Origin: Sclerodactyla briareus
Lineage: Eukaryota; Echinodermata; Holothuroidea; Dendrochirotida; Sclerodactylidae
Reading direction: 5' to 3'
DNA: 64,000 nucleotides
Assembly (NCBI GenBank): GCA_026419785.1
Contig: JAODTK010005631.1
Coordinates: forward strand, 124,001-188,000
This document shows positions 3,051 through 30,290 of this stretch, piece by piece. The notes under the pieces are model-generated. The model had not been told where the DNA came from. It saw only the letters and a program-made list of their open reading frames with translations, and ran no database searches. The position numbers and the translations under genes were made by a program. How positions within the stretch are numbered: the first letter of the stretch is position 1; each line of letters begins with the position of its first letter.

Positions 3051-4770
3051 GCCTTCAGTATTTTTCTTTGTTCAATTGATTTCCCAGAATTTTATTGGAT
3101 ATTGTCAGGTTCTATTGAAGTTACTGTTTTATCAGTTGTTCTTCTTTATTTTGCAATGCACTAGGCTGCCGCCACTTCATGAAGCCTGCAGATCTAGCTC
3201 GGGCATTGCTACTGCACAGCCGATCACTCCATACATTTCATACATAATAACCTTATTATTATGTATTTTATGACATTATCGAAATGTAGCCAGCTTTTAT
3301 AGGTTTCACAAACGGCGCACCATAAAATAGACTCGAAGTTTCATGCTTAACAAGGCAGAGGGGTACGAAATATAGCTGCATACCACCACAAGTTTGCACT
3401 GACTAATGGGAACTTGCAAGTCTGCACGATTTCGATTACTGATTTTTCAAGTGCAGACTCAAACACTCAATCATCATATCAGAGATAAACATATCACTAT
3501 CAATTCACAATGCATATATTAGGGGTGCACATGTTGCAAGATTGGATGGAGGAAAGCTGTTTTTCTGCAGTGATTCTCCCGTAGTGAGAATTTTCGTGCA
3601 ATGATAGTGTTGTGACACCTATTGCGCGATATCAAACAAGCAACTGTTGTGGACGTTTCAATATTTTAACTATTGGCAAAATGGTTGGTGGGGTCTAGCA
3701 TCGACAAGGAAGTTTTGCGTAGCTAATGTATACGTGTTACCCTGGCCTTTATATGTATAGTTATATAACCGATTAACCCTATGGAGACTATATATAGAGT
3801 ATGACTGATTTCGCATAACTGGTAGTGTACACACATGGCATCCCAAAGTAAAACTAGCACCAGTGGTGCAACTATAATTTGTGTGAAATGTGTGTGAGGT
3901 AAGTGTTTTGATTAGGGTGGGTGAGTAGGTTAGATGAGTAACTTGAGGCTAAGGGCCAGGGGTTCATACAGATTACGGTTTGGATGGTACCAGAGCATGA
4001 AGCTATCATATTACATGAAGAGGCTATGAGCCTGTGCCTAATGGCGCATTTAATGGACCGTAAGGAATACAAAAAACAAAAGTTCAGCATGTGTAACGTC
4101 CCCATAGAAACAAGTGTGTTATTAACTTGTTGTGTCGAATTGTGTGAACATGATTTTGCATGGCGCAGGCCCACACTCACCCATGGGAGCACATGCCTGG
4201 AAGGCACCTAACCGCATCCACCCACTGCTCCCAATCACTCCGGAGCCTCCTCTGGGGAAGTGACCAGCCTCACCCATCCCCCAACTCCCTGGGGCAACCA
4301 CCCCTACCATGAGCTACAGGGACAACCCTCAGGACACGGTGGACACGATCTTCTGCCGGGTGGTGTTCCATAGTATAGGCTGGCCTAATGGTGACGACAG
4401 TTATAAAACAACTGCAGTCAGTGTTTACTCTAATTGTCAGTGTTACACTAATTTGACAAAACATGCCCAGTATAACGGAATCACAACGTATTTATAGTAC
4501 AGAACGTCAGAAACCATATTCATATCCATCACAAAAATGTGTTTGAGACTGGCAGTAGAACTGTCGAGTTTATATTCTGAAATTGCTCAAAGTTCAATTC
4601 AGCCTTTATTTCATGTCCCCTTTCCAGCCACGAAACTACCCATACTGCAGTAATATATTGTATAAATGATATAAAAACTACAATTGAATTTTTTTTAAAC
4701 CCATGGATCTGAAGGTCAAAATCGTAATTTCGTGGATAGGGTCCCCGTGGCGAAAAATATAGTAACGGTC
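3051..4770. other. Unrecognised non-coding DNA
   Basis: No feature recognised. A CA-rich, GC-richer patch at 4165-4320 stands out in composition from its AT-rich surroundings, but has no convincing coding frame. Confidence 0.45.
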
Positions 4771-4774
4771 GGCC

Positions 4775-4975
4775 GGCTTCTTTTTATCTCATCGGTCCCG
4801 AAGGGCAAGATGAGATATTGTAGTCACTTGGCCATTTCACCTATATTTACTGTTGCTGGTTGTCATAGCAACGGTTGCTATGGTAACCATCGTGGTGGTT
4901 AGGTTACTATCCACTGAGGGGTACCCATTGGTGGGGTACCGTGGGTGCCGGGTGATCCAGCAATGAGGTGCACTT
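4775..4975 (+). repeat. Dispersed hairpin-containing repeat, copy 1
   Basis: This segment matches the reverse complement of 56115-56305 across nearly its whole length. Shared landmarks in order are CTCATCGGTCC, CCGAAGGGC, GATGAGA, CATTTCACCTATAT, ACGGTTGCTATGGTAAC, CTATCCACTGAG, and a GGTG-C-GGGTG-TCCA tail. CTCATC and GATGAG flank the GGTCCCCGAAGGGC core and can form a stem-loop. No transposase, A/B box or poly(A) is seen, so the class (SINE or MITE) is undetermined. Confidence 0.75.
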
Positions 4976-4982
4976 ATGAACG

Positions 4983-5022
4983 TGTCCGTTTGTGTGTGTG
5001 CGTGTGTGTGTGTGTTTCCGTG
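4983..5022 (+). repeat. GT-rich microsatellite
   Basis: An interrupted GT tract (GTGTCCGTTTGTGTGTGTGCG and so on) directly after the hairpin repeat. Confidence 0.8.
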
Positions 5023-5024
5023 TC

Positions 5025-5560
5025 TGTCAGATTTTTGATGGTTTTTCGCAAATATCTCCATTTTGGAATTGCTCTGAATAAGGCAAATTTGGCACACACT
5101 TGATAGTCACAACACACATCTTTGTTCTCAGAATAAGGTGGTAACTATCAAAATTGTGGACAAATTGAGGGCAAAAAACGAATTTTGGGGCAATTTCTCA
5201 ATTTTACGAATTTTTCACTATTTTTCAAGATATTCGCTGATTTCGAGGCTGAAATGATTTCAAACTTTGTAGCAATGCAAAAAGGCACAAATGACAACTT
5301 TTCCCATGCAATCAGCCGAAAATTACCAAAAAGGTGGATTTTAGGGGGGGGGGGGAAATGGACTTTTGGCAAATCTGTTCTGTTTTCAGCATATTCAGCA
5401 AGGTACAGAGTGTCAAAACAAGGGTTTCCCAGCATCGATGCTGTACATTTACTGACATTTCTATGAATATAAATATTTTTGGGGGAAAACAGCAGTTCCC
5501 AGACTTATTTTGATAATTTTGTCTATTTGTAACTCGCGAAAATGCAGCATGTAGAAACAA
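5025..5560 (+). repeat. AT-rich repeat module, class unknown
   Basis: Contains TTCGCAAATATCTCCA-TTTG followed by TAGTCACA and CAAGATATTCG-TGATT, all of which recur in the same order on the minus strand at about 57425-57190. Similarity between landmarks is weak. A poly-G run lies at 5344-5355. The module has no convincing coding frame. See the finding on swapped module order. Confidence 0.4.
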
Positions 5561-6649: not shown

Positions 6650-7110
6650 GACTGATTCTGACTTGATCAAGCTAAGCATTGTCATCTTACTTGCTTACAA
6701 AATCTACAGTAGGGACCATGTTGTACTCATTATATGGGGAATTCACATACCACGTATGAACTCCATCCATCAGGAAGGGATGAGTTCTCGCGCCAACGAG
6801 ATAAATTGCGACTTATCATTTTCTCACACTTTCCCATTTTTTGCTCATCCAAAACTGGAAATAGTTCACACAGAAGAATTGGATTCTTGCACTTCCCGTA
6901 GGAAAGCTGCATACTCAATTTCAACCTGATCGAGTCAGGCATTCTGAACTTATCATTTTAAAAATGTTTCCAGACTTAACCTCTCTTAACCGCAAATGAC
7001 CTTTGACCTGACCACGAAAACATGGGGACCATGTACTCATTATGGGGATTGTGGCTCAATATGCTTGATTTCGGTCTCGGTATTTTCCTGTGTTACACAT
7101 TCAATTCTCT
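6650..7110 (-). repeat. AGGTCA-family repeat, minus-strand copy
   Basis: Read on the minus strand, this carries the landmarks of the 15.1-16.8 kb array: a TGAACTTGG-like block, CCCCATAATGAGTACATGGTCCCCAT, then GGTCAGGTCAAAGGTCATTTG. On the plus strand these are TACTCATTATGGGGATT (about 7033) and GACCTTTGACCTGACC (about 7000). An upstream portion around 6705-6770 repeats the TACTCATTATATGGGGAA and CATACCACGTATGAACTCC blocks, so there are two half-units. A related B-type half (CACTTCCCGTAGGAAAGCTG) lies at about 6890. Confidence 0.7.
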
Positions 7111-7450
7111 CACATTTAGATGGGAGATAAGTATTCGCCACAGCACAGCGGAACCATGTGCCACAGTGCATTTTGAACGTTAACGTTAAACGTTTGTTTA
7201 CAATAATAATGGATTTTCATTTATGGTATACTTGCATGAGCACAGAGGATGACGCCTATCCGATGCCAAGCAAGGGTGCCTACCTGGAACTGCACCTTAT
7301 TATCAGCTTCACGAGGTACACAGAACAAGGCAATGCCCCGGAACCATACTGCGAGGTGTAATCACACGCAGCTCCCTCCCCTCGTTTGTCCCTGCTCCAA
7401 TCCCTTGTGCAGCAAGTAGGCAACATATACCATTCTTAAAGTCTTTGGCA
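7111..7450. other. Unrecognised non-coding DNA
   Basis: No feature recognised. A CCCTCCCC-rich patch sits at about 7370. Confidence 0.4.
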
Positions 7451-7519
7451 TGATCGACCCGGACTCGAACCCCCGGTCCCCCGGGCGGAGGGCCGACGCT
7501 CTACCAATTATGACAACCA
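7451..7519 (-). repeat. tRNA-derived SINE head (tRNA-like, decayed)
   Basis: On the minus strand there is an A-box-like TTGGTAGAGCG (plus 7497-7507) and a perfect B-box core GGTTCGAGTCC (near 7463-7473), spaced as in tRNA genes. The two ends pair as a partial acceptor stem: TGGTTG with CGATCA, including two G-U pairs. The 5' half of the D-stem is missing, and the T-stem and anticodon stem are badly mispaired. It is therefore not a working tRNA but a tRNA-derived SINE head or tRNA pseudogene. No poly(A) or tail repeat could be assigned. Confidence 0.65.
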
Positions 7520-7920
7520 CCAGATTAAAGTATAGTGACATATACGGTATGCTCTATACTTAGGCAAATAATGCAGCTCAATTCCCGCGAAATATTCGAC
7601 CAACCTTAGCAACAGGGACGGTGCAATCAGGGTACATATGGAACAGCCCCCCCCCCCCCCCCCACTCCCCCTCCATTGAACAACCCTAATTAGGAAAAAG
7701 TGGACCCTCGTCGGGGAGCTAAGTGAAGGCTCGTCGCGGAGCAAAGCACGGAGAGAAAGAAGGAAGAAAACGTAGGGAAATAAAGAAAGACAAACAGTAA
7801 ATGTGGGAATATACATATGATGTAGATGGGTAGGGCGAGGCAGGCTCGTAGCCAGCTTCCGCAGTAAATGGGCAACTTGCCTTCCCCAATGGCTACGCCA
7901 TTGGGGCGAGGTGCATTTGC
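7520..7920 (-). repeat. Probable miniature element remnant with poly-C/G core
   Basis: A poly-C run at about 7649-7667 and an inner TCCATTGAA block resemble the poly-G/C cores of repeats at 39.6 and 63.7 kb. On the minus strand the region starts with CAATGGCGTAGCCATTGGGG, reminiscent of CAGNGGCGTAGC-type ends elsewhere in the window (48592). A right end was not identified. The open frame at 7508-7930 (140 codons, minus) spans this repeat and poly-Gly sequence and is not regarded as a gene. Confidence 0.4.
7884..7906. repeat. Perfect palindrome, 10-bp arms, 3-nt loop
   Basis: Arms CCCCAATGGC and GCCATTGGGG are exact reverse complements around TAC. It lies at the end of the probable miniature element. 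Confidence 0.9.
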
Positions 7921-7951
7921 TGCGTGTCATCCGTCTGGAAACTTGTCTCTC

Positions 7952-7972
7952 CCCTCCCCCCCCCCCCCCCCC
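7952..7972. repeat. Poly-C tract
   Basis: A run of about 18-20 C within CTCCCC-rich sequence. The length is likely unreliable. Confidence 0.85.
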
Positions 7973-8209
7973 CTCGTTGGGAGAATCATGGCGCTGTACC
8001 TGCCAGTGCCATAATCACGCTGCCCAGATGGTACGAATTCCATTTCGGCGCTCTGCAGGGCTTGCGCAGTCCGCAGAACTCGCTCACTGATCGATTCCCT
8101 GCGCAGCAATCTGTGGATGCCCTGCGCCTGCGCACTCTTGGTGGCTCCTTTTGTTATTCTTGTTTTTCGATTTTTGCGGACTGCGCAGTGTCTGCGCTAC
8201 GGACTAGTG

Positions 8210-9240
8210 GATGGCTAGCTTTGTATTGTTTGGGGGTCAAGTCCAAGATCACCCAAGGTCTGAGAAAATAACTGTGCATCAAAATGTTGTAGAGAGATCA
8301 TTTTTACGCGAAGGATTGGATTGTGGAATGGTGATCTTTTTCGCTATGCAGTCAGGTCGAAGGTCACCCATGATCACTGTCCTATTATGATGACATGGCA
8401 GAAAATGACTCTTGTCATCCACTCGGTGCACGGCAAGGTATCTTTGAGCTCTTTAGTTCTCTCGTTTTCTGCACTGTGATCCCAGTAAAAATATGCAACG
8501 AAATGATGTGGATAGCTCATATGTGGCTGGAGGGTCCAAAGTCACCTAAGGTCAACAAACGTCGAAGTTTTCATGTTAGCAAGAGAACTGTGCAACCAAA
8601 GGATGCGGAGAGATCAATAGTCACGAAAAAAAAGTCTGGAAAGTTTGTGAGCCTAATAACAGTTGCACAGTTATTGTGCTACAAGCCTAACCAGACTATG
8701 ACATCTGTCGACCTTCAGGCACCTCGTACCTGACCCCGAAACAAAGGAGATAATCTATTTCACATAGAGACCCGTTGTCCCAAGTATGAACTCCCTATAC
8801 CGCTTCGTTACACAGTTATTGTGCTCACGAGCCTTTCTGCTCACTTTCAGTGACCTCAGGCTTTGCACAAACCATTAGAGATCTAAATGCCAGTTTAGTT
8901 GCACACATCCATTGTTTTCACAACTTTGCAGACTTTCACCTCAGTTGACCTTTGACGACCTGTATCTAATCCCAAATGAGTAGAAGAAGTCGTTACTCTA
9001 ACTGGGCAATTCTCGAGGCAGGTATGAACTATCTACAACATTTCGTTGCACAGTTATTGTGCTCACCAACTTTGACCTCTGTTGAGCTCAAGTGATACTG
9101 CACCTGACCACAAAACAACATGGATCACCTACATCACATGCCGACCCTACGTGCCGAGTATGAGCCTTCCACATAGCTTAGTAGCACAGCTATTGTGCTC
9201 ACAAGAAGCGTCACATCCACACGCCAAAATCCACTTCTGC
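8210..9240 (-). repeat. AGGTCA-family diverged tandem array, minus strand
   Basis: The landmark ACAGTTATTGTGCT recurs at about 8668, 8813 and 9052, with a variant CACAGCTATTGTGCTCACAAG at about 9186. Between these lie AAGTATGAACT blocks and TGACCTC/TTGACCTTTG blocks. Read on the minus strand the order matches the plus-strand arrays at 15.1 and 49.3 kb: half-site cluster, then AGCACAATAACTGTG, then a TTCATACTTGG block. Unit length is irregular (about 145-240 bp). I see no coding frame that survives the repeat structure. Confidence 0.7.
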
Positions 9241-9572
9241 GTGACTACATAGTCGTATTTCGCCTGCGGCAGAGGAATGAATAACCCACGGGAGCCGGGT
9301 GCATGGACCAGCGATAAGTAACTCTTCAGAAACGGCGTGGACGCGTCTGTGTGTGTTCGCGTAAGTCAGATAATCTATGTTTTGGAATTACTGAACATTT
9401 TCAATTCTTGCGATTAGATAGTCATGCGCGCTCCGGATTAGAACATCCTTCATTCGCACCCAGTAAGCTACCATATGTATCATTTACACATTTGGGTCAC
9501 CCCGGGAAGATAATTTTGACGGTTAATTACCAACTTTCTGATCCAATTTGAACTAAATACCGCCATGGAGAG

Positions 9573-9595
9573 TTTTTTTTTTTTTTTTTTTTTTT
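9573..9595. repeat. Poly-T tract
   Basis: 23 T residues. On the minus strand this is an A-rich tail at the 3' side of the repeat at 9600-9945. Confidence 0.9.
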
Positions 9596-9599
9596 CAAT

Positions 9600-9945
9600 T
9601 CTCGGAGGGGCACCCTCTTATGACCTTGAATTAATGCCAAGAATGAACAGTGTTAATTTCCCGTGAAGTTCAACGATACCCACATACCTAATTTGAACTT
9701 CACACATGCTTGCATTCATTTGATATCGTGCTGACCAGTTGTCAGAGGTTTGCCCCTCTCACGACCTTGAATGACCTCGAATAAGAACATCCTCAAGTAA
9801 ATGTGCATCGCACGTACCTAATTTGAACTTGGTGCATGCTTGCGCCGGTTAGATATCCTGCTGGCAAGCAGTGTCTGGAAGTGGCACCTACACACACGTA
9901 CGCACATTTACAAACACACACACACACACAAACACACATACGCAT
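9600..9945 (-). repeat. AGGTCA/CACGATATC-subfamily repeat with GT border, minus strand
   Basis: On the minus strand the order is (GT)n (plus 9886-9940 as CA), then a CAGCAGGATATCTAAC block, AAGCATGCACCAAGTTCAAATT, AAGGTCATTCAAGGTCGTGA, then a second half-unit with CAGCACGATATCAAATG and TGAAGTTCAAATTAGGT. The same order, including the GT microsatellite at the 5' side, is seen on the plus strand at 49.2 and 62.8 kb. Confidence 0.8.
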
Positions 9946-10969
9946 ACCTGCTTATTATCGCAGAATTATCTGCACCAAAACCAAGCAGGCCTAGACGTGA
10001 GATCACCTATCGTTGTATATCTGCCATATCCCATGAGTCGTGTCGCAGACCTGACATTATCGCTGAATTTACAGATCCTCCATATGACGTACATGGTGCT
10101 ATTCAGTTCTACAATACCACTCGGCCAGCTGTTGGATAATCACGCACCCTCCAAGAGGAACGTCATCACAATTAGACGCGATGCCAATGGTGTACTCCAG
10201 ACATTGCTATTGCTGAACAAAAGAGGCGTTCTGTAGAAAAAAGCAGTGGCGCAAAAGCAAGCGTGAATTCCACAGTCAGATTATCTGGCGTATGCAAACT
10301 CATCAAGGCATTGTCCGAAAGGGAAAGCAGCTACTACCAAAATTTGACTCAAGACCATGCCAATGATAAAAAAAAAAAAATCACTCTTTCGGATCGTATC
10401 TTCCCTTTCTACTTCCTCAAGTGCTCTGCTGCCATCACATACATCTGAACTTGAGTTAAGTGAACGTCTCTACAGCTATTTCACTGAGAAAATTACTGAC
10501 ATTCGTGCGGAACTGGTCACCACAAGTATCAACAATTAACGTTGATGATGTTGAGGCAAATTCATCAGCCTCTCTCAGCTCGTTTCAGCTAATTTCACCT
10601 GAGGATATTCGTTGAATTGTCAAAGTCCAGCTGTTCTGACTCGTTTCCGACATCATTTATCAACACGTTGTCGGGGTAGTACTGCTCATATTTGTCGAAT
10701 TGTGAACAAATCACTCGAGACTGGAGTGATTCTTATGACAGCAATCATTACACCTCTCCCGAAAAAAGCCAACTCTTGATGCTGAAGTCATGGGTAAGTT
10801 TCGGCCAATATCAAACCTGCCATTCATTGCAAAAAGTTATTGGAAAGGCAGCATCACGTCAGCTCATGGATTGATTACCTTGATATCAAGTATTACTGGA
10901 ACTATTGCAGTCTGCTTACCGACAGAGGCACAGCACGAAGACAGCATTGCTCTTGGCCAACTCTTCGTT

Positions 10970-15141: not shown

Positions 15142-15245
15142 CCTTGCTTGTTAACACGATAACTCAACCCCGCTTGGATGGATCAAGTTCATACTTTGTA
15201 TATGGGTTTCCCATAATGAGTACATGATCCCTATTGTTTGGGGTC

Positions 15246-15278
15246 AGGTCAAAGGTCATCTGAGGTCAAGGGAGGTCA
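15246..15278 (+). promoter_or_regulatory. Potential nuclear-receptor site cluster (DR1 + DR4 + DR4)
   Basis: Four exact AGGTCA half-sites at 15246, 15253, 15263 and 15273, spaced 1, 4 and 4 bases apart. The same spacing occurs at 15548-15580, 15872-15904 and 16181-16213. DR1 and DR4 spacings are the known preferences of RXR partners, HNF4 and TR/LXR-type receptors. Occupancy or function is not implied by sequence alone. Confidence 0.45.
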
Positions 15279-16440
15279 AAATCTGAAAAGCTTGTTAACA
15301 CGATAAGTCCAGAATGCCTGGTCTGATCAGGTTGAAACTTGGTGTGCAGCTTTCTAATGAGGAGTACAGGAAACCTATCGTTTATGGTGTAATTCGTGGG
15401 TCAGATTCGAAAAAGAGAGAAATTGTGAAGCTTGCTAATTTGGCACTTTTAAGTTCGTAACACAATAACGACCCCACTCGGACGGATCAAGTTCATACTT
15501 GGTATAGGTTCCCCATAATGAGTACATGATCCCTATTGTTTGGGGTCAGGTCAAAGGTCATCTGAGGTCAAGATAGGTCAAAGTCTGAAAAATTTGTTAA
15601 TACGATACGTCTGGAATGCCTGGTCCGATCACTGTGATCGGGTTGAAACTCGGGATACAGCTTCCTTATGGGGAGTACAGGGACCCTATTGTTATGGTGT
15701 AATTGTGTATGGGGGGTCAGGTTTGGGAAAAAATGGGAAATTTTGAAAAATTGGTAATTTGGCCAATTTTAGTTCGTTAACACAATAACTCGATACCACT
15801 CGGACGGATCAAGTTCATACTTGGTATATGGGTTCCCCATAATGAGTACATGATCCCTATTGTTTGGGGTCAGGTCAAAGGTCATCTGAGGTCAAGAGAG
15901 GTCAGAGTCCGATTTTTTTGTTAACAGGATAAGTCCAAAATGCCTGGTCCAATCAGGGGTGAAACTCGGTTTGCAGCTCCTTAGGAGAGGAAATACGGGG
16001 AAAACCCTATGTTATGGTGTATTCAGGGGTAGATTTGGGGGGAAATGGGGGAAATTGGGAATAGTTGATAATTTGGCCAATTTTAGCTCGTTACCACATA
16101 ACTCCCCCACTGGATTGACAAGTTCATACTTGGTATATGGGTTCCCCATAATGAGTACATGATCCCTATTGTTTGGGGTCAGGTCAAAGGTCATCTGAGG
16201 TCAAGAGAGGTCAGAGTCCGATTTTTTTGTTAACAGGATAAGTCCAAAATGCCTGGTCCAATCAGTTGAACTTCGTTGTTGCAGCTTCCTTATGAGGAAT
16301 CGGGAAACCCTATTGTTATGGTGTAATTCAGGGGTCAGATTTGGGGGGAAATGGGGGAAATTGGGAAGATTTGATAATTTGGCCAATTTTAGCTCGTTAA
16401 CATGATACATCGCCCCGACTTTGTATATGGTTCCCCATAA

Positions 16441-20892: not shown

Positions 20893-21360
20893 TTGTGTGG
20901 AGCGGCAACCCTGCCGCTAGCAGACGACGTCACTTTGGTGAGTGACGGGTTTTCTGGCTGCCTCAGGTTTTCGGGTGTTCGGGCGCTCTGATTGGCTCTG
21001 CCGTCACCTGACCTCTGTAGCGAGAGCAGCGCGGGAGACACAAACCGTTACTTGCCAGTGTGCAACAAGAATCCGTCCGGGCCAGGTTGCATCGTCCGTA
21101 CTGGTGTACCTTCACGGAGCTATTGCGGAGCAAATACGCCAGGATCGTATTACAACCTAACCTCATCTTGCTTATACTACAAGCTACAACGGGAGCGTCT
21201 GCGGCAGTTGCCCCCGTCAATCTACGCTGGAGAAGAGCCGACTACATTCACCATCTTACTAGCTACGTCGAGGAGCTTACTACCGAGTCCAGCAACGGGA
21301 AGTTTGGCCCTCTGTGTCGACTTTGGCATGAAGGACCTGGATGACAGGTAGATGAACTGA
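20893..21360 (+). other. GC-richer segment, uncharacterised, with overlapping open frames
   Basis: Starts with TGTGGAGCGGCAACCCTGCCGCTAGCAGACGACGTCACT. A diverged match lies at 30396-30440 (TGTGGAGCGACAAAAAACTACC, AGCAGACGACTCAGTGACG). It contains CRE-like GACGTCAC and an inverted CCAAT (GATTGGCT, 20990). Two overlapping plus-strand open frames (20992-21351 and 21060-21344) run through the GC-richer part, followed by ACAGGTAGAT, a possible splice donor. No family is recognised for either frame. The shared start favours a repeat over a host first exon, but the latter cannot be excluded. Confidence 0.25.
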
Positions 21361-21720
21361 TTAAATTGTCAGCCTAAAATATGCTAATTAAGTGGTCTAA
21401 TTTTGCATAATTTATGCGAATTTCTCAAGTCTGTCGGATTTTCTCGAAACTTGGTGGATGTGGTCTACCATTGTTCCCAAGAAATGTAAAAGTGAAGTCG
21501 GAATCACTGGAGGTCATTTAATGTGTCTACTTTGCATAATTAGGACAAGTTTGTTTTATTTCCACAAAACTTGGTAGATATGATCCACCTTTGATCCTGA
21601 TCATTTTAACGTACAGCTGGAGTCATCATAATTATGTGCCTAATTGCATGATATATTCCAATTTCCAACTTGGTAAGAATTTCGCCAAACTCAGTAAGTA
21701 TAGTCTGTTAACATTTTCTG
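21361..21720 (+). repeat. Tandem repeat, about 110-120-bp unit, three diverged copies
   Basis: Recurring blocks are TTTGCATAATT-ATG/AGGACAA, a TTC-AA-TTTCTC/CC run, then AAACTTGGT-GATATG/GTGGTC and a CCACCTTTGATCC-like block. Copies begin near 21404, 21531 and 21645. Adjacent to the GATCGC motif and another AGGTCA copy. Confidence 0.6.
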
Positions 21721-21769
21721 GATCTGATGGGCTTGATGTTCATGAATTGATTGAATTCCATCATATAAT

Positions 21770-21848: not shown

Positions 21849-22036
21849 TTGAAGTTCATACTTGGTATGTGGGTTCACATGATGAGTAACATGAACCCCA
21901 TTGTTTTGGGGTCTGGGCAGAAGTCGTCTGAGGTCATCAGAGGTCAAAGCCCCAAAATCGTGTAAACACAGGTCCCGATTGGTTGGGCCTAGCACGTTGA
22001 AATTTGGTGTATAGTTTTCTTATGGGGAGTGTCACA
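21849..22036 (+). repeat. AGGTCA-family repeat, single dimeric unit
   Basis: A half (GAAGTTCATACTTGGTATGTG, ATGATGAGTAACATGAACCCC, GGGGTCTGGGCAGAAGTCG, GAGGTCATCAGAGGTCA) followed by the B half (TGTAAACACAGGTCCCGATTG, GTTGAAATTTGGTG, TTATGGGGAGTG). Same order as the array at 15-17 kb. The half-site pair AGGTCATCAGAGGTCA is a DR4. Confidence 0.85.
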
Positions 22037-22037
22037 G

Positions 22038-22112
22038 GGTCTAATAGTTGAGTATTAGAGTGGCATCACTTACTATCCATGTTGACTTCGATTCCCAGTC
22101 TCTTTGATTTAC
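22038..22112 (+). repeat. tRNA-like SINE head (weak)
   Basis: TAATAGTTGAGTATTAGAGTGG resembles a D-arm/A box and TGACTTCGATTCCC resembles a T-arm/B box at about the right distance. No full cloverleaf can be drawn. It abuts the AGGTCA repeat unit and could be chance. Confidence 0.35.
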
Positions 22113-22264
22113 TGGGATTATAGCCCTTCAATCAGGGTTTTGATCCCCGCACATTCTATGGCGGATAGTGAGTGTTGGGTAACGTATAGGGTATACGTAA
22201 AATTGCATGGCAGGAGCAAATTTGGGGGTGTGTCATTCTTCCGTTGCTGGGTGCGTGAAGGTGG

Positions 22265-22435
22265 ACATGAGGTTACTGTGTGTTTCCCCGTTGCGATTCT
22301 GTTAGGGTTACTGTGTGTTCCTGACCGTGTGGCGTAGGGTTACTGTGTGTTCCCCCCGACGTATTGACTGTGTGTTTTTTCCTATGAATCGCGCATTTTT
22401 TCGCGCGGAAGTGGGCCTACTCTGTGTTCCCAACT
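22265..22435 (+). repeat. Minisatellite with AGGGTTACTGTGTGTTCC core
   Basis: Copies begin near 22271, 22304 and 22336, with decayed copies near 22366 and 22417. Spacing is 30-33 bp, then about 51 bp. Confidence 0.75.
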
Positions 22436-22784
22436 TAATGCTGGAGGCCAACCACCGTCACGTCGATGGTATAACCGGAGCCGGAGCTCCCGTAAGTCTA
22501 CGTCTGGGATTTGCCCCGTTAGTGTCCCTTAACACCACTCCCCTTTTTTTTTTCCCAGTATTGTATTCTATTGCTATCTAAGTCAGACATCTGCACACGT
22601 GTGTGTGGTAATGTGTCGTTAAATATTTAGTTTCCCCAAACGTAGGTTATTCTATGTATTGTGTATTGGTTGCCCTATAACACCAAGTACCATCTTCGCA
22701 GTCTTAGACAAAATATGTAGAATTTAATTGTCAGAATTGATCATTATCTTCCTGCAGCTTCAGGAATTTTAGCGTATCCGTCAT

Positions 22785-22951
22785 GTTTCGGTGTACATGT
22801 ACAACAATAGTTCTTACCGTTCCATGTATAACTCTACTGGTTGATGTTTTATGAGCTACAATCCCCCCAAAATTAGTTGGTTTCGGTATACATGTCAACA
22901 TTGTTTCTTACCGTTCCATGTATAATCGAATATGTTTGATGTTTAGGAAGC
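22785..22951 (+). repeat. Tandem duplication of about 85 bp ending in TIR-like sequence
   Basis: TCGGTGTACATGTAC, CTTACCGTTCCATGTATAA and GATGTTTTATGAGCTACAATCC at 22785-22870 recur as TCGGTATACATGTC, CTTACCGTTCCATGTATAA and GATGTTTAGGAAGCTACATCC at about 22873-22960. Each copy ends in the first part of the inverted-end element described next. Confidence 0.7.
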
Positions 22952-23136
22952 TACATCCCCGCCAATTAGTTGGAACACCCTCCCCGCACCCCATTTCAAT
23001 GTTGTTCTCTTCAAACTTGCAGGATTTTCGACTACGAGCCAACATTGAACAGGGGGGATGGGGGAGGGGGTACCGTGACTGACATAATCATTCTGCTGAG
23101 AGCCATGTATTGTTCCAACAATTTTGGCGGGAGTAT
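22952..23136. mobile_element. Inverted-end element, copy 1
   Basis: Left end TACATCCCCGCC-AATTAGTTGGAACA, right end TGTTCCAACAATTTTGGCGGGAGTATA: imperfect inverted repeats of about 28 bp. The interior shares CGCACCCC-ATTTCAATGTTG, GATTTTCGACTACGAG, AACATTGAACAGGGG, GGTACCGTGACTGAC and ATTCTGCTG with copies 2-4. No coding capacity; MITE-like. Confidence 0.8.
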
Positions 23137-24675
23137 ATTCCCCTGCTATTTGTGCGTATTGTGGGAGACTCGTCAGGAGCAGAACAGCTAGCGGATGCTC
23201 GCAATTTGCAACGTTCCCATCACCACCAGAATAGAATTGCTTGACATGTTTCATGGCTCTTGTAAAGAAGTATGTGTCGTGGCTCGACATGGACCCGGAT
23301 AACTCATGATATTTCCGACATGAAAATCCATGAACACACAGCTTTAAACGCTGCCCTCTAGGAGCAGTTTGCCAACCCGTACGCGATTTACCATCACCGG
23401 CCTGTCAGCTAGGAACACCAGGTTGTCAGGCATACCCCAGATCTATTGACATTCGGCCTCTATTGAAATCGCAATCATGTATCGCAAAAAAAAAAACTGT
23501 GACGTCACAGGTCGCCTGCTCAACCCATTTGGTATTGTTGCCGGTGATACTGTGTCCTTTTCTAATACCCGCTTTATTACCGCGCTTCTTATGTTGCAGT
23601 TTGGTTGATTCGATTGTTGTAACAATAACTTTTTAGTACACATTCATTAAAGGCCAAGAAATTACAATTATTGTCTTTGGAAAAGCGACTGTGGACCACA
23701 GAACGCAACACTGCGTAGTGATTCATGCCGTGTTTATTTACTGTTTTGTACGGACGGGACATCGTTTAATTGGCTAATGGTGTATGGTTGAACTATGACA
23801 CAATGCTGCAATTGTTCTTTCGATGCGTTTCGGAAGCACCGTCATTGCGCACTCTGAGAGCACCACATAGGCCTAACGACAATATATAGCTCCAATGCCC
23901 AAGCGCTTGCAACTCATATTCGCGGCTGGAGGCGCCGACTGACGTATTGCTATGTACACTATGAAATGGGTAATCCTGTTTTGTGGCGCGATAGTCGTGA
24001 ACGTAATCTCTCCAGTCACATTCTGATGATTGACATAATGGGTTTGACCGTAACACTTATGACGGCCAGGAACGGTTCATGTTTGGTTGAGATTCAATAC
24101 ACCGTGCTCAGTAGGTGTTTGTTGCTGTAGGTTGGATGCATTTTTGGCACACGGAATGCTGTAGGCTCGTTCCAAATCCAATGGTAACTACGTTAAACCA
24201 TTTTAAAAGCCAAGAAGTTCCTGATATAAGTTTACTCCATTAACTGAATTTGCATTTAGTTTACCATTGTAATGCGATACATATGGATCTATAACGTAAA
24301 GGTAATCCTTTCGTGTTTGACATTTCCATTTCATTGGTATGTTTTTAGTCTTGAGTGTTGAACTTCGCCAAGTCCCGTTGTTTTGTCACGGCTCTTCTGC
24401 TCCGTTGGCGTAATCCAGGCGACCAAGTCCCTTTTCCCACAGATGTCGGCATTCGCACGTCGTAAGTCTTTGCTTCTTCCTCTGTCGCCATGTGGACGTA
24501 GGGTGGTTATAAAAAGTTGTCTGATATATGTCCTTATAAGGTGTCGAGACTATCGTGACGTGTAATAATACGACATCAACACGTGCATACAGATTGAAGT
24601 TTGTAGCACGGGTTTTCCGTCATACAACGTCCCCCGATGTCCCCCTGCCTACATAGCACGCGTTTGTATGGGGGA
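23137..24675 (+). repeat. Tandem unit A (body)
   Basis: About 1.54 kb, matching unit A' (24927-26443) throughout with numerous substitutions and indels. It has no open frame conserved between the copies, so it is non-coding. It contains TGACGTCA (23500-23507), shared with A' (25289-25296). The last ~180 bp, from GGTGGTTATAAAAAGTTG (24504), are shared with A' and with B but not recognisably with B'. Confidence 0.9.
24504..24675 (+). repeat. Common 3' segment with TATAAAA, shared by A, A' and B
   Basis: GGTGGTTATAAAAAGTTG, TGATATATGTC-TTATAAGGT, GTCGA-ACTATCGTGACG, CATACAGATTGAAGTTTGTAG and CGTCCCCCGATGTCCCCCTG recur at 26269 and 28280. TATAAAA is at 24508. Each occurrence leads directly into an inverted-end element. 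Whether it acts as a promoter is unknown. Confidence 0.8.
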
Positions 24676-24926
24676 TAGACAATCCATCCCGCCAAAATTA
24701 GTTGGACACCTCCCCCGCACCCCCTATTCAATGTTGTTCTCTTCAAACGTGCGATTTTTCGACTACGAGACCACATTGAAGAGAAAAAAAAAAAAAAAAA
24801 AAAAAAGAAAAAAACAAGAAAGGGAGAAAAAAAAGAAAAGGGGGGATGGAGGATGGGTACCGTGACTGACTCAATCATTCTGCTGGAATCCATGTATTGT
24901 TCCAACAATTTTTTGCGGGGATTGTA
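24676..24926. mobile_element. Inverted-end element, copy 2, with A-rich insertion
   Basis: Left TAGACAATCCATCCCGCCAAAA, right TTTTTTGCGGGGATTGTATA. Between the conserved ACATTGAA and GGGGGATGG blocks lies a purine run of about 55 bp (24781-24840, mostly A with G) absent from the other copies. Confidence 0.8.
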
Positions 24927-26443
24927 TATCCCATGCTATATATGCGTACATGAGGGAAGACGCGTCAGGAGAAACACTAGCGGTATGCTCGCAATTTGCA
25001 ACTTTTTCCCATCACCACCAGAATAGAATCGCTTGACATGTTTCATGGCTCTTGTACAGAAGTTTGTTTCGTGGCCCAACATGGACCCGGATCATGAATA
25101 TTTCGACATGAAATCATGAACACACAGCCCTGTTTAAACGCTGCCCGCGACTTAGCAGTTTGCCAAACCGCGTACGCGATTACCATCACCGGGCTGACAG
25201 CTAGGAACAACAGGTTGTGCAGGCAAATCCCACAGATCTATTGAACAGTCGGGGCCTATTGAAATCGCAATCAATATCGCAAAAACTGTGACGTCACGGT
25301 AGCCTGCGCAACCCATTGGGTATTGTGCACGGTGGATACTGTGTCTTTTCTAAATAACTGACTTAATTACCGCGCTGCTTATGTTGCAGTTTGGTTGATT
25401 CCGATTGTGTGTACATAACTTTTGAGTACACCTTCAGTACGGCCAAGAAATTACAGCATTAATGTTCTTTGGAAAAAGCGACTTGTGGACACCACCAAAA
25501 AACAAGACCGCAACACTGCGTAGTGATTCCATGCCGTGTTTATTTACTTTTGACGGAACGGGACATCGTTTAATTGCTATGGTGTATGGTTGACCTATGA
25601 CACAATGCTGCAAGTTGTCTTTCGATCGTTTTCGGAAGCGCGTCATGCGCACTCTGATGAGCACACTCATAGCCTAACTGACAATATATACACCGAATGC
25701 CCAATCGCTTGCAACTCATTCGCGCTGGAGGGCGCCTGAACTGAAGTATACTATTTACACTATGAAAGTGTATCTGTTTTGTGGCGGCGATAATCGTGAA
25801 CGGTAATGCTCTCCATTGTGACATTCTGATGATTGAATTAATGGTTTACCGTAACATTAGTACGCCAGAACGGTCATGTTTGGTTGAGATTCATACACCG
25901 TGCTCCTAGGTTTGTCTGTAGGTTGGATTCATTTTTGGCACACGGAATGCTGTATGCTGTTCCAATGCCAATGGTACCTACGGTAAACCATTTTAAAAGC
26001 AGAAGTTCTGATATATGTTTACTCAATTAACCGAAGTTTGCATTTAGGTTTTACATGAATGCGATACATAAATGGAGCTAAACGAAAGGTAAATCATTTC
26101 GTGTTTGACATTTCCATTCCATTGGTGTTGAACTTCGCCCAGTCCGTTTTGTCACGGCTCTTTGCTCGTTTGCGTAAGCCAGGCGCGCTAAGTCCATTTT
26201 CACAAGGATTTCGGGCACTTCGAACGGCGTCAGTCTGGCATCTTCCTCTGTCGCCATGTTGACGTACGGTGGTTATAAAAATTGGCTGATATATGTCACT
26301 TATAAGGTTGTCGACACGATCGTGACGGGTAATAATATACAGACCTCAACACTGACTACAGATTGAAGTTTGTAGCACTTTCCGTCATACCACTTCCCCC
26401 GATGTCGCCCCTGCCCACATAGCACGCGTTTGTATGTGGGATA
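24927..26443 (+). repeat. Tandem unit A' (body)
   Basis: Second copy of unit A in the same orientation. It ends in the same TATAAAA-bearing segment (TATAAAA at 26274) before inverted-end copy 3. The open frames differ from those of A because of indels. Confidence 0.9.
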
Positions 26444-26697
26444 TACAATCCCCGCCAAAATTAGTTGGAACCCATCCCCCGCACCCCCTATTCAATGTTG
26501 TTCTCTCAAAACTTGCATGATTTTCTACTACGAGACCAACATTGAACAGGGGGGATGGGGGGGGGGTACCGTGACTGCAGGATTTTCGACCATGAGATCA
26601 ACATTGAACAGGGGGGAGGGGGAGGGGTAACCGTGACTGACACAATCATTCTGCTGGAAGCCATGTAGTGTTCCAACAATTTTTGGCGGGGATTGTA
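26444..26697. mobile_element. Inverted-end element, copy 3, with internal duplication
   Basis: Left TACAATCCCCGCCAAAATT, right AATTTTTGGCGGGGATTGTA: excellent inverted ends. The interior is duplicated: GATTTTC-ACTACGAGACCAACATTGAACAGGGGGG...GTACCGTGACTG is followed by a second GATTTTCGACCATGAGATCAACATTGAACAGG block. The left flank is A-type and the right flank is B-type, so this copy marks the switch. Confidence 0.85.
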
Positions 26698-28460
26698 GTT
26701 TTGTTTGTAGTCTCGATGCATATAGTAAGTTGATGCCATATGTGTAGCCCTACACAGTATAATCTTGCAATTGAATATGTAAATTGGCGAATAGAAATGT
26801 TTTTTTGCATCTAAGACTAGATAACATATTGGAATTTCGGGCTAGATAGCACATTTGATAAACGAACTAAATGGAGGATGAATAGAGTTTATACGAATTA
26901 GATCATATATATTGATATGGGTTTACGAGAGGATGTATATGATCCAATTATTGAATCAGGAATTATTTTTATAACTTCGTATATATTTTTTCCAGTACTG
27001 TTATGTTTGTTGAATGAACGATGATATCGTGCAAGTTTGAAAGGGTTTTTATTTGAGCTTAGTAATTACAAATTGTTTGGAAGCTACCTAAACACCCTCT
27101 TACCCGCCCAGGTTACTACCCTGTAAATGCATAATATCATTATGTTTGTATTGTTTAATGTTGCAGGGTTTCCCTACGGGTTTTTTTTCCAATACAAGGA
27201 AAGGACCAACTCGTCGACTGCTGTCCCTCTCTGAAGTTTTTGTTTTCAAGCACCACGTGGACAAGGAGTACAGGCCCCAATGGAGTCATTTTTCATCCAA
27301 AAACAAAAGAACATTTGTGAAGAATCAATATTTTTGGCAATTTCCCCTTGTAAACACAGAACAACCCATCTATCTAGCCTTTTATCTTTCTTTCCTTCGC
27401 ATGACTTTGCCTTCTTTCAGCCCCGTGTTTCCTTGTCTTTGACTGTGTTGACCAACCTTTGCTACTTTAGTCATCGACCACTGGGGACCCTGTTGACCTT
27501 AAGTTAACTGTCAAGGTCATTAAGGGGGCACAAAAGCTTTTTGTGGGAATTCTGCTTTTTGGCTCACAATAAAACTTGTTCACTGACTACTGTTTACCCT
27601 TTATCCCCGCAATGGTCAAGGTCAGGTCAGTGAAAGCGGGCGTAACTCCCCTGGGGTTTTGGGTGTGGCCCACAATTTGGGATAATGTGCTTTTGGGATG
27701 GCAAAAAAAAAACCTATTTTCAGTCAAACTTCCATTTGCAGGGCAAAAGTACCTTCGAGGCCAAGCAATAACGGTGGTAACTAAGGCAAGCCAGCAGGAA
27801 GAGAGCCCTTTGAAAGAAACTTAGCAAAATCATCCCCCCCCCCATCAATCACACTAGTTAACCTCTGTATTGAGTGGGTGTAGCTACTCAGTGCTGACAT
27901 TTAATACATCTGGCCAACTCCAACGATTCTTCTTTTCGAGTGAAATTGTATCATACCACAGTAACGCGGCCACAAGAAAACTAAATGTTCAATATCTCCA
28001 AGATTGACTCGATCTGTGACAATCTGTTACAATACCCGATCAGATATTCGGGCCTCTATATCATACTCTCTAGTTCTAAGGTTGGTCACTGTTATTACTG
28101 TTTCATAATGTTCAGCTATCAATTAATTTCTTCGGACGTCACATTTATCACATTGTTTTTACATGCTAGTACAATGCTTGTACCAGTTTGGCTCTACATT
28201 CTAGGCTCTGTCGCCATCAATGTGTCCTTCAACACGCCTTCACTGTTGTCTCCACATGTCGTTCGCATGTTGACGTAAGGTGGTTATAAAAAGTTGGCTG
28301 ATATATGTCACTTATAGGTTGTCGACCCTATCGTGACGGTGTAATAACATAGCGACCTCAACACGGTGACATACAGATTGAAGTTTGTAGGCACGGTTTC
28401 CGTCCTACCACGTCCCCCGATGTCCCCCTGCCTACTTTGCACACTTTTGTATAGGGTATA
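26698..28460 (+). repeat. Tandem unit B (body)
   Basis: Matches unit B' (28655-30290). Shared blocks run in order from GTTTTGTTTGTAGTC, ATAGTAA-GTTGATGC and CTAGATAGCACATT to CACGTGGACAAGGAGTACA, CAAGGTCATTAAGG-GGCACAAAAGC and CCAGCAGGAAGA. Open frames (27146-27442 here, 29000-29488 in B') align only loosely and are interrupted differently, so no gene is called. A poly-C run lies at 27832-27841 and aligns with one at 29837. Confidence 0.85.
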
Positions 28461-28654
28461 TACATTCCCCGCCAAAATTAGTTGGAACACCTCCCCCTAC
28501 CCCCTATTCACTTTTGTTACTCCTTCAACTGCAGGATTTTCGACTACGAGAACCAACATTGAACAGGGGTATGGGGGGAGGGGGTACCGTGACTGACATA
28601 AATCAGTCTGCTGGAAGCCAGATGTATGTTCCAACAATTTTGGCGGGGATTGTA
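28461..28654. mobile_element. Inverted-end element, copy 4
   Basis: Left TACATTCCCCGCCAAAATTA, right AATTTTGGCGGGGATTGTA. Interior blocks as in the other copies. Its left flank is the TATAAAA-bearing common segment of unit B, and its right flank is the start of unit B'. Confidence 0.85.
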
Positions 28655-30290
28655 GTTTTGTTTGTAGTCCTCGGGGCCATATAGTAAAGTTGATGCAATA
28701 TTTTGTAACCTGCAATATTATAATCTTGCGATTGAATATGTAAATGCGAATGAATGTTTGCATCTAAGAACTAGATAACATATTGGAATATTCGAGCTAG
28801 ATAGCACATTGATATACGAACTAAATGGAGGATAAATAGAGTTTACTAATTAGATCATCTATTTTGATATGGGTTTACGAGCAGATGTATAAGATCCAAT
28901 GTATTGAATCAGGGAATTATTGTTTTACTTTCGTATATATTTTTTTCCAAGTAACTTGATGTAATTTTGGTTTGACTGTAGCGAGGATATAGTGCAGTTT
29001 TGAAAGGGTTGAATTTGAGGCTTAGTACTTCAAATTGTTTGGGAGGAGCTACTAAACACCCCTTATACCCGCACAGGTTCCACAAAACTGTAAAAATGTC
29101 ATATTACATTAGGTTTGATGTTGTTAAATGTTTGCATGGTTTCCTTTCCCTACGGGATTGTTGCCAATACAAGAAAGCAGACCAACCACTCTCGACTCTG
29201 TCCCTCTCTGACGTCTGTGTTCAAGAACCACGTGACAAGGAGTACATGAACCCCAATGAGTCATTTTTCCATATTCCAAAACAAAAGAAATATTGTGAAA
29301 GAACAATATTTGGCCAGATTTCCCTTGTAAACACAATAACTAAACCCATCTATCTATCCTTTTATTTGTCTTTTCTTTCCATGCCTGACTTTTTGCCTTT
29401 TTCTTTCAGCCCGTGTTTCCTTGGGTCTTTTACTGATGTTGACCAACTTGATCACTCGTTCAACATCGATCACTGGGGACACCTTTGACCTTTAAGTTTA
29501 CATGTCAAAGGTCATTAAAGGGGCACAAAAGCTTTTGTGGGGAATTCTCTTTTTGCTCAAATAAAACTTGTTCACTGCCCTACTTTTACACTTTATCCCG
29601 GCATGGTCAATGTCAAGGTCAGTGACGCAAAGGCGTAACTCAAGGGGGTTTTGGGTTTTGGCCCACAATTTGGGGATAATTGCTGTTGGGAGGTCCAAAC
29701 AAAAACATATTTTTACGGTCAAACATTTCATTTTTGCAGGGGCAAAAGTACCTTGTCGAGCAAAGCATAACGTGGCTAACGAAGGCAAGGCCAGCAGGAA
29801 GATAGCCTTTTGAAAAGGAAACTTAGCAAACTACTCCCCCCCCCCCATTTCAAATCACACCTAGTTAACCTCTGATTGTGGTGTGTAGCGACTGCCAAGT
29901 GCTGACCATTTAATTACAATCTGGCAACTCCACGATTCTTCCTTTTCGAGTGAAATGTGTATCATACCCCAGTAACGGCGGACACAAGAAAACTAAATGT
30001 TCAATATCTCCAAGATTGACTCGATCTGTGACAATCTTTGACCATCCCAATCAGATATTCGGGCCTCTGTATCACACTTCTCCAATTCTAAGTTTGGTCA
30101 ACTGTTATTACTGTTTCATAATGTGCCGCTGAATCAATTAATTGCATTCGACGTCAATTTCATCACCATGTTCACATGCCTATAGTAACATGCTTGTACC
30201 TTTTGTCGCTACTTTCTAGGCTCTGTCGCCATTCCATGATGTCTTCACAACGCTTCCACTGTTGTCTGTTGTCTCCACTGCCCTTCACTG
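28655..30290 (+). repeat. Tandem unit B' (body)
   Basis: Second B copy. It holds the longest open frame of the window (29000-29488), which I treat as incidental because the aligned stretch of B is broken in other places. The match to B ends near CTCTGTCGCCAT (about 30220-30300), where B runs on into the TATAAAA segment and B' does not. Confidence 0.85.

Follow-up and report, generated by a model that had tools for sequence, protein, structure and literature searches.

A mosaic tandem array in Sclerodactyla briareus and its probable origin from a MITE-bounded satellite nested in a host repeat

The array and its surroundings

We analyzed a 64,000-nucleotide stretch of Sclerodactyla briareus DNA (the window), which lies in contig C2874 of the 319-Mb, 3171-contig assembly used for the genome searches. 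The window contains an array of two different units, A and B, each present twice in tandem with periods of ~1.79 kb (A pair) and ~2.0 kb (B pair). This arrangement, proposed earlier from the letters alone, was confirmed by self-BLAST of the 22.0-31.5 kb region against the window (E-value 0.0 for both pairs). A and A' are 81.9% identical over 1958 columns (23047-24926 vs 24835-26697), and B and B' are 81.5% identical over 1788 columns (26574-28251 vs 28528-30267). The features of the locus are listed below.

22026..22030, no strand: left GGAGT, which with its counterpart at 27265-27269 probably forms the target-site duplication of host repeat X; the site without X on C1564 (L044) has one GGAGT
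22031..22951, plus strand: host repeat X, left part; in L043 the segment 22408-22778 runs directly into B1, and there are further left-flank matches in L045, L053 and L054
22785..22973, plus strand: 96-bp tandem duplication over the left edge, consisting of the X tail and ~22 bp of E (repeat scan and self-BLAST)
22952..22953, no strand: TA, left copy of the composite's target-site duplication (a single TA in four fetched empty sites)
22954..23133, plus strand: E1, an inverted-end MITE-like element with a degenerate 3' end
23136..24488, plus strand: A body, a non-coding passenger
24489..24679, plus strand: T, the 3' part of the A unit (common stretch)
24680..24924, plus strand: E2, with a poly-A insertion at 24784-24839
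24927..26254, plus strand: A' body
26255..26445, plus strand: T', with which the duplicated segment [T-E-B] begins (26255-26577 matches 28266-28595)
26446..26695, plus strand: E3, lengthened by an internal 62-bp tandem duplication; the composite insertion ends here on its right side
26696..26697, no strand: TA, right copy of the composite's target-site duplication
26698..27264, plus strand: B1, the right part of host repeat X
27265..28265, plus strand: B2, genomic DNA downstream of X (C1564 matches at 66%, without X)
28266..30267, plus strand: second copy, [T-E4-B'], with E4 at 28463-28652 and B' from 28655

One copy of E stands ahead of every unit, as the earlier note had described for its inverted-end element. 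The ends of E2-E4 read CA(A)TCCCC...GGCGGGGATTG, and those of E1 are degenerate at the 3' end. The greater length of E2 comes from the poly-A insertion and that of E3 from the internal duplication (26514-26639). The T stretch (~190 bp) precedes E2, E3 and E4 and is missing after B', in agreement with the ~180 bp previously noticed in A, A' and B only. The TATAAAA reported for this stretch holds within the window, where all three T copies carry TTATAAAA (at 24507, 26273 and 28284), but not across the family: at the same position the majority of 71 genome-wide units has CTTATAGAAAG. Similarly, the interval 22952-30290 does hold the array, but the 96-bp duplication that overlaps its left edge begins earlier, at 22785.

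A genome search with the B body returned full-length matches only at its own two places in the window. Its first 567 bases (B1), however, match a dispersed repeat, here called X, on C2321, C2339, C3113, C2936 and, partly, C1216. On C2321 and C2339 the B1 stretch is joined directly to the window's left flank. All four other X copies that were fetched (C2321, C2339, C2936 and C3113; the partial B1 match on C1216 was left out of the count) show a single TA at the position occupied in the window by TA-[E-A-T-E-A'-T'-E]-TA. Because the site is uninterrupted in these four copies, the stretch from E1 to E3 is a single insertion at a TA in X. The DNA surrounding X (up to window position 22030, and from base 568 of B onwards) is found without X on C1564, with a single GGAGT compared to two in the window. 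X itself is therefore nested, having been inserted with a probable 5-bp GGAGT duplication. X is ~1.49 kb long (22031-22951 plus 26698-27264), begins with GTCAC and ends with GTGAC; it is possibly an unclassified TIR element.

B is the right end of X together with downstream DNA. The B pair is one ~2.0-kb tandem duplication of [T-E-B] that runs from inside the composite over its right edge: 26255-26577 matches 28266-28595 at 86%, and the match then continues collinearly as B/B'. B' is without T because ordinary flank follows B' after this duplication. The term 'composite non-autonomous transposon', which had been suggested for the array, is fair for the A half. As judged from this genome, A and B did not turn out to be pieces of one known annotated transposon, as the earlier note had considered; A belongs to a satellite of its own, and B to the host DNA. 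For neither window flank was a haplotype contig seen, the matches being dispersed repeats only. Elsewhere in the window, a 309-bp tandem repeat is present in four copies (15146-16402).

The E element and the E-A-T satellite

The majority sequence of E, derived from 91 E matches, is 193 bp long with inverted ends of ~26 bp. Like a MITE, E is short, non-coding and bounded by terminal inverted repeats, and a TA target-site duplication is seen against 4/4 fetched empty X sites. The pattern of its ends (terminal sequence CAATCCCCGCC) has 31 matches within 3 mismatches. At the 12 loci for which both outer ends were available, TA is present at the low-coordinate end in 12/12 and at the high-coordinate end in 8/12. 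The four remaining high-coordinate ends are degenerate (L022, L039), lost (L028) or end in T without E (L019). In addition, at 5/5 other array edges that were inspected (C2876, C187, C948 and two on C1540), E and an adjoining TA border non-satellite flank. E is also found without A, as a single copy at L022, L024 and L028 and as a dimer at L023. Hairpin z-scores for three partial stretches of E were -2.0, -0.5 and -2.9. E is most likely a TA-inserting, Tc1/mariner-like MITE, its superfamily and mobility being judged from the TA duplication and the end structure.

Some arrangements of E are less regular. At L019 (C2987) four E copies stand in tandem ahead of a unit (4449-5223). At the right end of the unit at the same locus (~6745), TATACTGTAGC occupies the place of E and is a possible excision footprint. 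The array gaps without E on C278 and C1639 are not clean pre-insertion junctions.

The genome contains at least 62 matches to E and at least 57 to A. At several loci (C775, C1639, C2105, C278, C2589 and others) the units form head-to-tail arrays, that is, a satellite, with E at the unit boundaries; a satellite tied to a MITE had been one of the earlier suggestions, and it holds genome-wide. There is a 1.33-kb form of the unit without most of A 37-433, and the full-length form resembling that of the window is arrayed on C2589. Dispersed E-A-T-E copies occur at L039, L041 and L042, and L040 is E-A-E, with T not detected there. At the window locus, the empty sites reveal a passenger between two E copies flanked by one target duplication, the organization of a composite. 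Joined-flank searches for further empty sites of the composites on C2364 and C551 found none.

To compare individual units, 82 unit matches were chained from the fetched stretches; 11 shorter chains were dropped and 71 near-full units from 16 contigs, including the window, were aligned. The resulting tree requires 17 changes of contig label, close to the minimum of 15 and compared to at least 47 in 300 shuffles. Units form clades in 9/12 contigs with two or more units; C187 and C1540, probably parts of a single array, fall together in one clade, and the exception is C2105, within which C1948 is placed. A and A' are sister units (support 0.999). A weaker signal than that of the tree comes from nearest neighbours, which are in the same contig for 34/67 units (shuffled mean 6.4, maximum 16). 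Terminal branches average 0.102 vs 0.007 for internal ones, partly through assembly noise. The orientation of E relative to the body, assigned for 64/71 units (7 unassigned), is uniform in 12/12 contigs with at least two units, differs between arrays and changes 3 times on the tree. Since units group by array, the arrays would have grown locally. Each of them seems to have arisen from one or a few founders after insertion, with E orientation fixed at founding.

We observed no sign of a function beyond propagation in these sequences. The earlier statement that no protein is encoded stands for the pieces tried: neither five single-copy frames from A-T units nor six window frames matched any Pfam family, and one A-T frame matched no PDB chain. 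There is also no codon-position bias in the A-T unit, and at 112 aa the longest frame in the majority unit stays below the 95% value for base shuffles (123 aa). On these grounds a coding origin of A-T was rejected. A 50-aa A-T piece has 34 matches in the genome, many of them in contigs with known arrays; its match on C2067, considered as a candidate gene, turned out to be a satellite unit. A short minus-strand frame of A-T (e.g. window 26078-26272) may resemble the N-terminal region of some uncharacterised, helicase-like marine invertebrate proteins, with no family matched. In the window, Rfam gave no matches at the gathering threshold, and ARAGORN with the bacterial code also returned none. 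The unit is evenly conserved over its length, with values of 0.84-0.92 in windows of 30 bases.

Origin of the array and alternative explanations

We propose, with a probability of roughly 0.8, that the locus is the product of three nested events, set against a genome-wide background of composite jumping and unequal exchange. First, X (~1.49 kb) would have inserted with a probable 5-bp duplication. Second, a composite (E-A-T)2-E, its E copies enclosing A-T as a non-coding passenger, would have inserted at a TA inside X. Third, a 2.0-kb tandem duplication reaching from T' across E3 into X and downstream DNA would have produced [T-E-B][T-E-B']. The 96-bp duplication at the left edge may be the same kind of event on a small scale. 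Across the genome, an E-bounded unit would jump as a composite through its outermost E ends, presumably moved as a unit by a transposase. It would then be amplified in place by unequal exchange between E/A repeats, and edge duplications would add flanking DNA as new kinds of units.

The main rival to this reading is circle integration. Here a solo E would insert first at the TA in X, and homologous recombination between this E and an extrachromosomal (E-A-T)n circle would then yield E-(A-T-E)n, whose TA edges would be the same. The occurrence of E alone and as a dimer is in line with this scenario, and E-bounded arrays that group by contig would be expected from it as well. However, there is no solo-E copy among the four fetched X copies, admittedly a small sample, and dispersed E-A-T-E composites that sit at TA can be explained without a circle. 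We regard circle integration as possible, although rather unlikely.

A different question is whether E itself drives the edge duplications. In alternative transposition or re-replication, nearby E ends would act together, as in maize Ac (PMC4270019), and give rise to both tandem duplications and composite insertions. Edge duplications are indeed present at other loci. On C1540 (L017 and L018) a ~6.0-kb tandem duplication (6036 to ~12017 and 12018 to ~17990) starts in T and passes the array edge, a layout like that of the window's B pair. On C1948 (L021) the flank is tandemly duplicated (6807-8804 and 8805-10000) with a 1998-bp period and 99.75% identity; this duplication starts at the right end of E, as alternative transposition would have it, and the second copy has no preceding E. 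In the fetched loci, tandem duplications abut 4/20 array or composite edges vs 0/8 solo- or dimer-E edges, a small contrast from a scan whose threshold misses short duplications, whose flanks are unequal in length and in part short, and which has no matched random-position control. The 96-bp duplication at the left edge in the window came from the repeat scan and self-BLAST and not from this edge scan. On C948 a stretch of flank that begins at the E end has a second, 80% identical copy at a distance of 2.6 kb; being non-adjacent, it was not counted as an edge duplication. Against alternative transposition, the new junctions in the window and on C1540 lie in T or in the flank and not at an E terminus, unlike in maize. 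Alternative transposition thus appears improbable as the origin of the locus. The same low weight is given to the broader idea that E termini provoke recurrent edge tandem duplications, by aborted or alternative transposition or by fork stalling, and so turn neighbouring DNA into new types of satellite units, B being an early stage.

The second copies could also be an artefact of mis-assembled noisy long reads. Some noise is evident: the number of gap openings per mismatch is 0.62-0.91 for eight array pairs, seven of which join units of the same array, compared to 0.16-0.39 for 21 pairs of a control, a dispersed repeat (window 21322-21769) with many copies at 81-86%. For a ninth pair, the window's A' vs the dispersed unit on C2147, the value is 0.40. 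Likewise, E matches in arrays and composites (86) carry on average 10.8 indel bases and 19.6 mismatches vs 3.0 and 17.0 for solo and dimer E (five), and actin matches break frame on C1260 and C2792. Nevertheless, the ratio is high as well (0.36-0.51, ten pairs) among copies of X that lie in unique contexts, so the indel excess is no proof of an artefact. Moreover, A and A' show ~18% difference and have variants in common that distinguish them from every other copy (0.999), which is not expected of a duplicated read, and the same unit structure is present on many contigs. The 99.75% identical duplicate on C1948 indicates that part of the assembly is not noisy. Accordingly, an artefact is very improbable; the excess looks like residual assembly error in repeats, so that the divergences quoted here should be read as upper estimates, the divergence between copies being apparently inflated by assembly indels.

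Finally, the earlier model of A and B as one architecture with a swapped body, prompted by the T and E common to both, is refuted by the empty sites, as other X copies carry B1 directly joined to the left flank, the four fetched copies being uninterrupted round a single TA, and the B body is matched over its length only at its two places in the window.

Relation to known systems

If the proposed history is correct, its steps can be read in order at one locus: a host repeat, the TA insertion of a MITE-bounded satellite, and an edge duplication that makes host DNA a tandem unit. Edge duplication, if general, would be a testable route by which new satellite monomers start. The case also illustrates that paralogous empty sites can resolve a 'mosaic array'.

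In corals, as described in PMC2872659, full-size CMITEs form tandem arrays, in one example with similar intervening sequence, and a new element, CMITE-IN, was assembled by MITE insertion. The coral CMITE of that account duplicates TTAA (piggyBac-like), whereas E duplicates TA; here, in addition, a 1.1-1.5 kb passenger lies between the elements and arrays are found genome-wide. In Xenopus, according to two reviews (PMC12628747, PMC9659126), miDNA4 (Tc1/mariner) and Xmix/Xstir are MITE-linked tandem arrays, with MITE, tandem and composite forms. The tandem repeat there is inside the MITE, whereas in our case a whole MITE stands between passenger copies and closes the edges that were reached. For maize Ac/fAc, PMC4270019 reports composite insertions and tandem direct duplications of flanking DNA near transposon ends. 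The duplication junctions described there are at transposon termini and the target-site duplication is 8 bp, whereas two of the four junctions here are away from E ends. Tandem LTR-retrotransposons (PMC11899658) likewise form end-body-end-body-end arrays, as unequal exchange would give. An LTR retrotransposon has direct terminal repeats in fixed orientation and a 4-6 bp duplication; such a tandem was rejected for our array by the TA duplication, the inverted ends of E and its occurrence in either orientation relative to the body.

Among the open-access papers covered by our searches, none describes whole MITEs placed between passengers together with edge duplications that capture host DNA. The kind of structure is known from MITE-derived satellites and the coral CMITE arrays, while the family and the variant are new. 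The locus is a clear example of satellite DNA growing out of transposons, though one with precedents.
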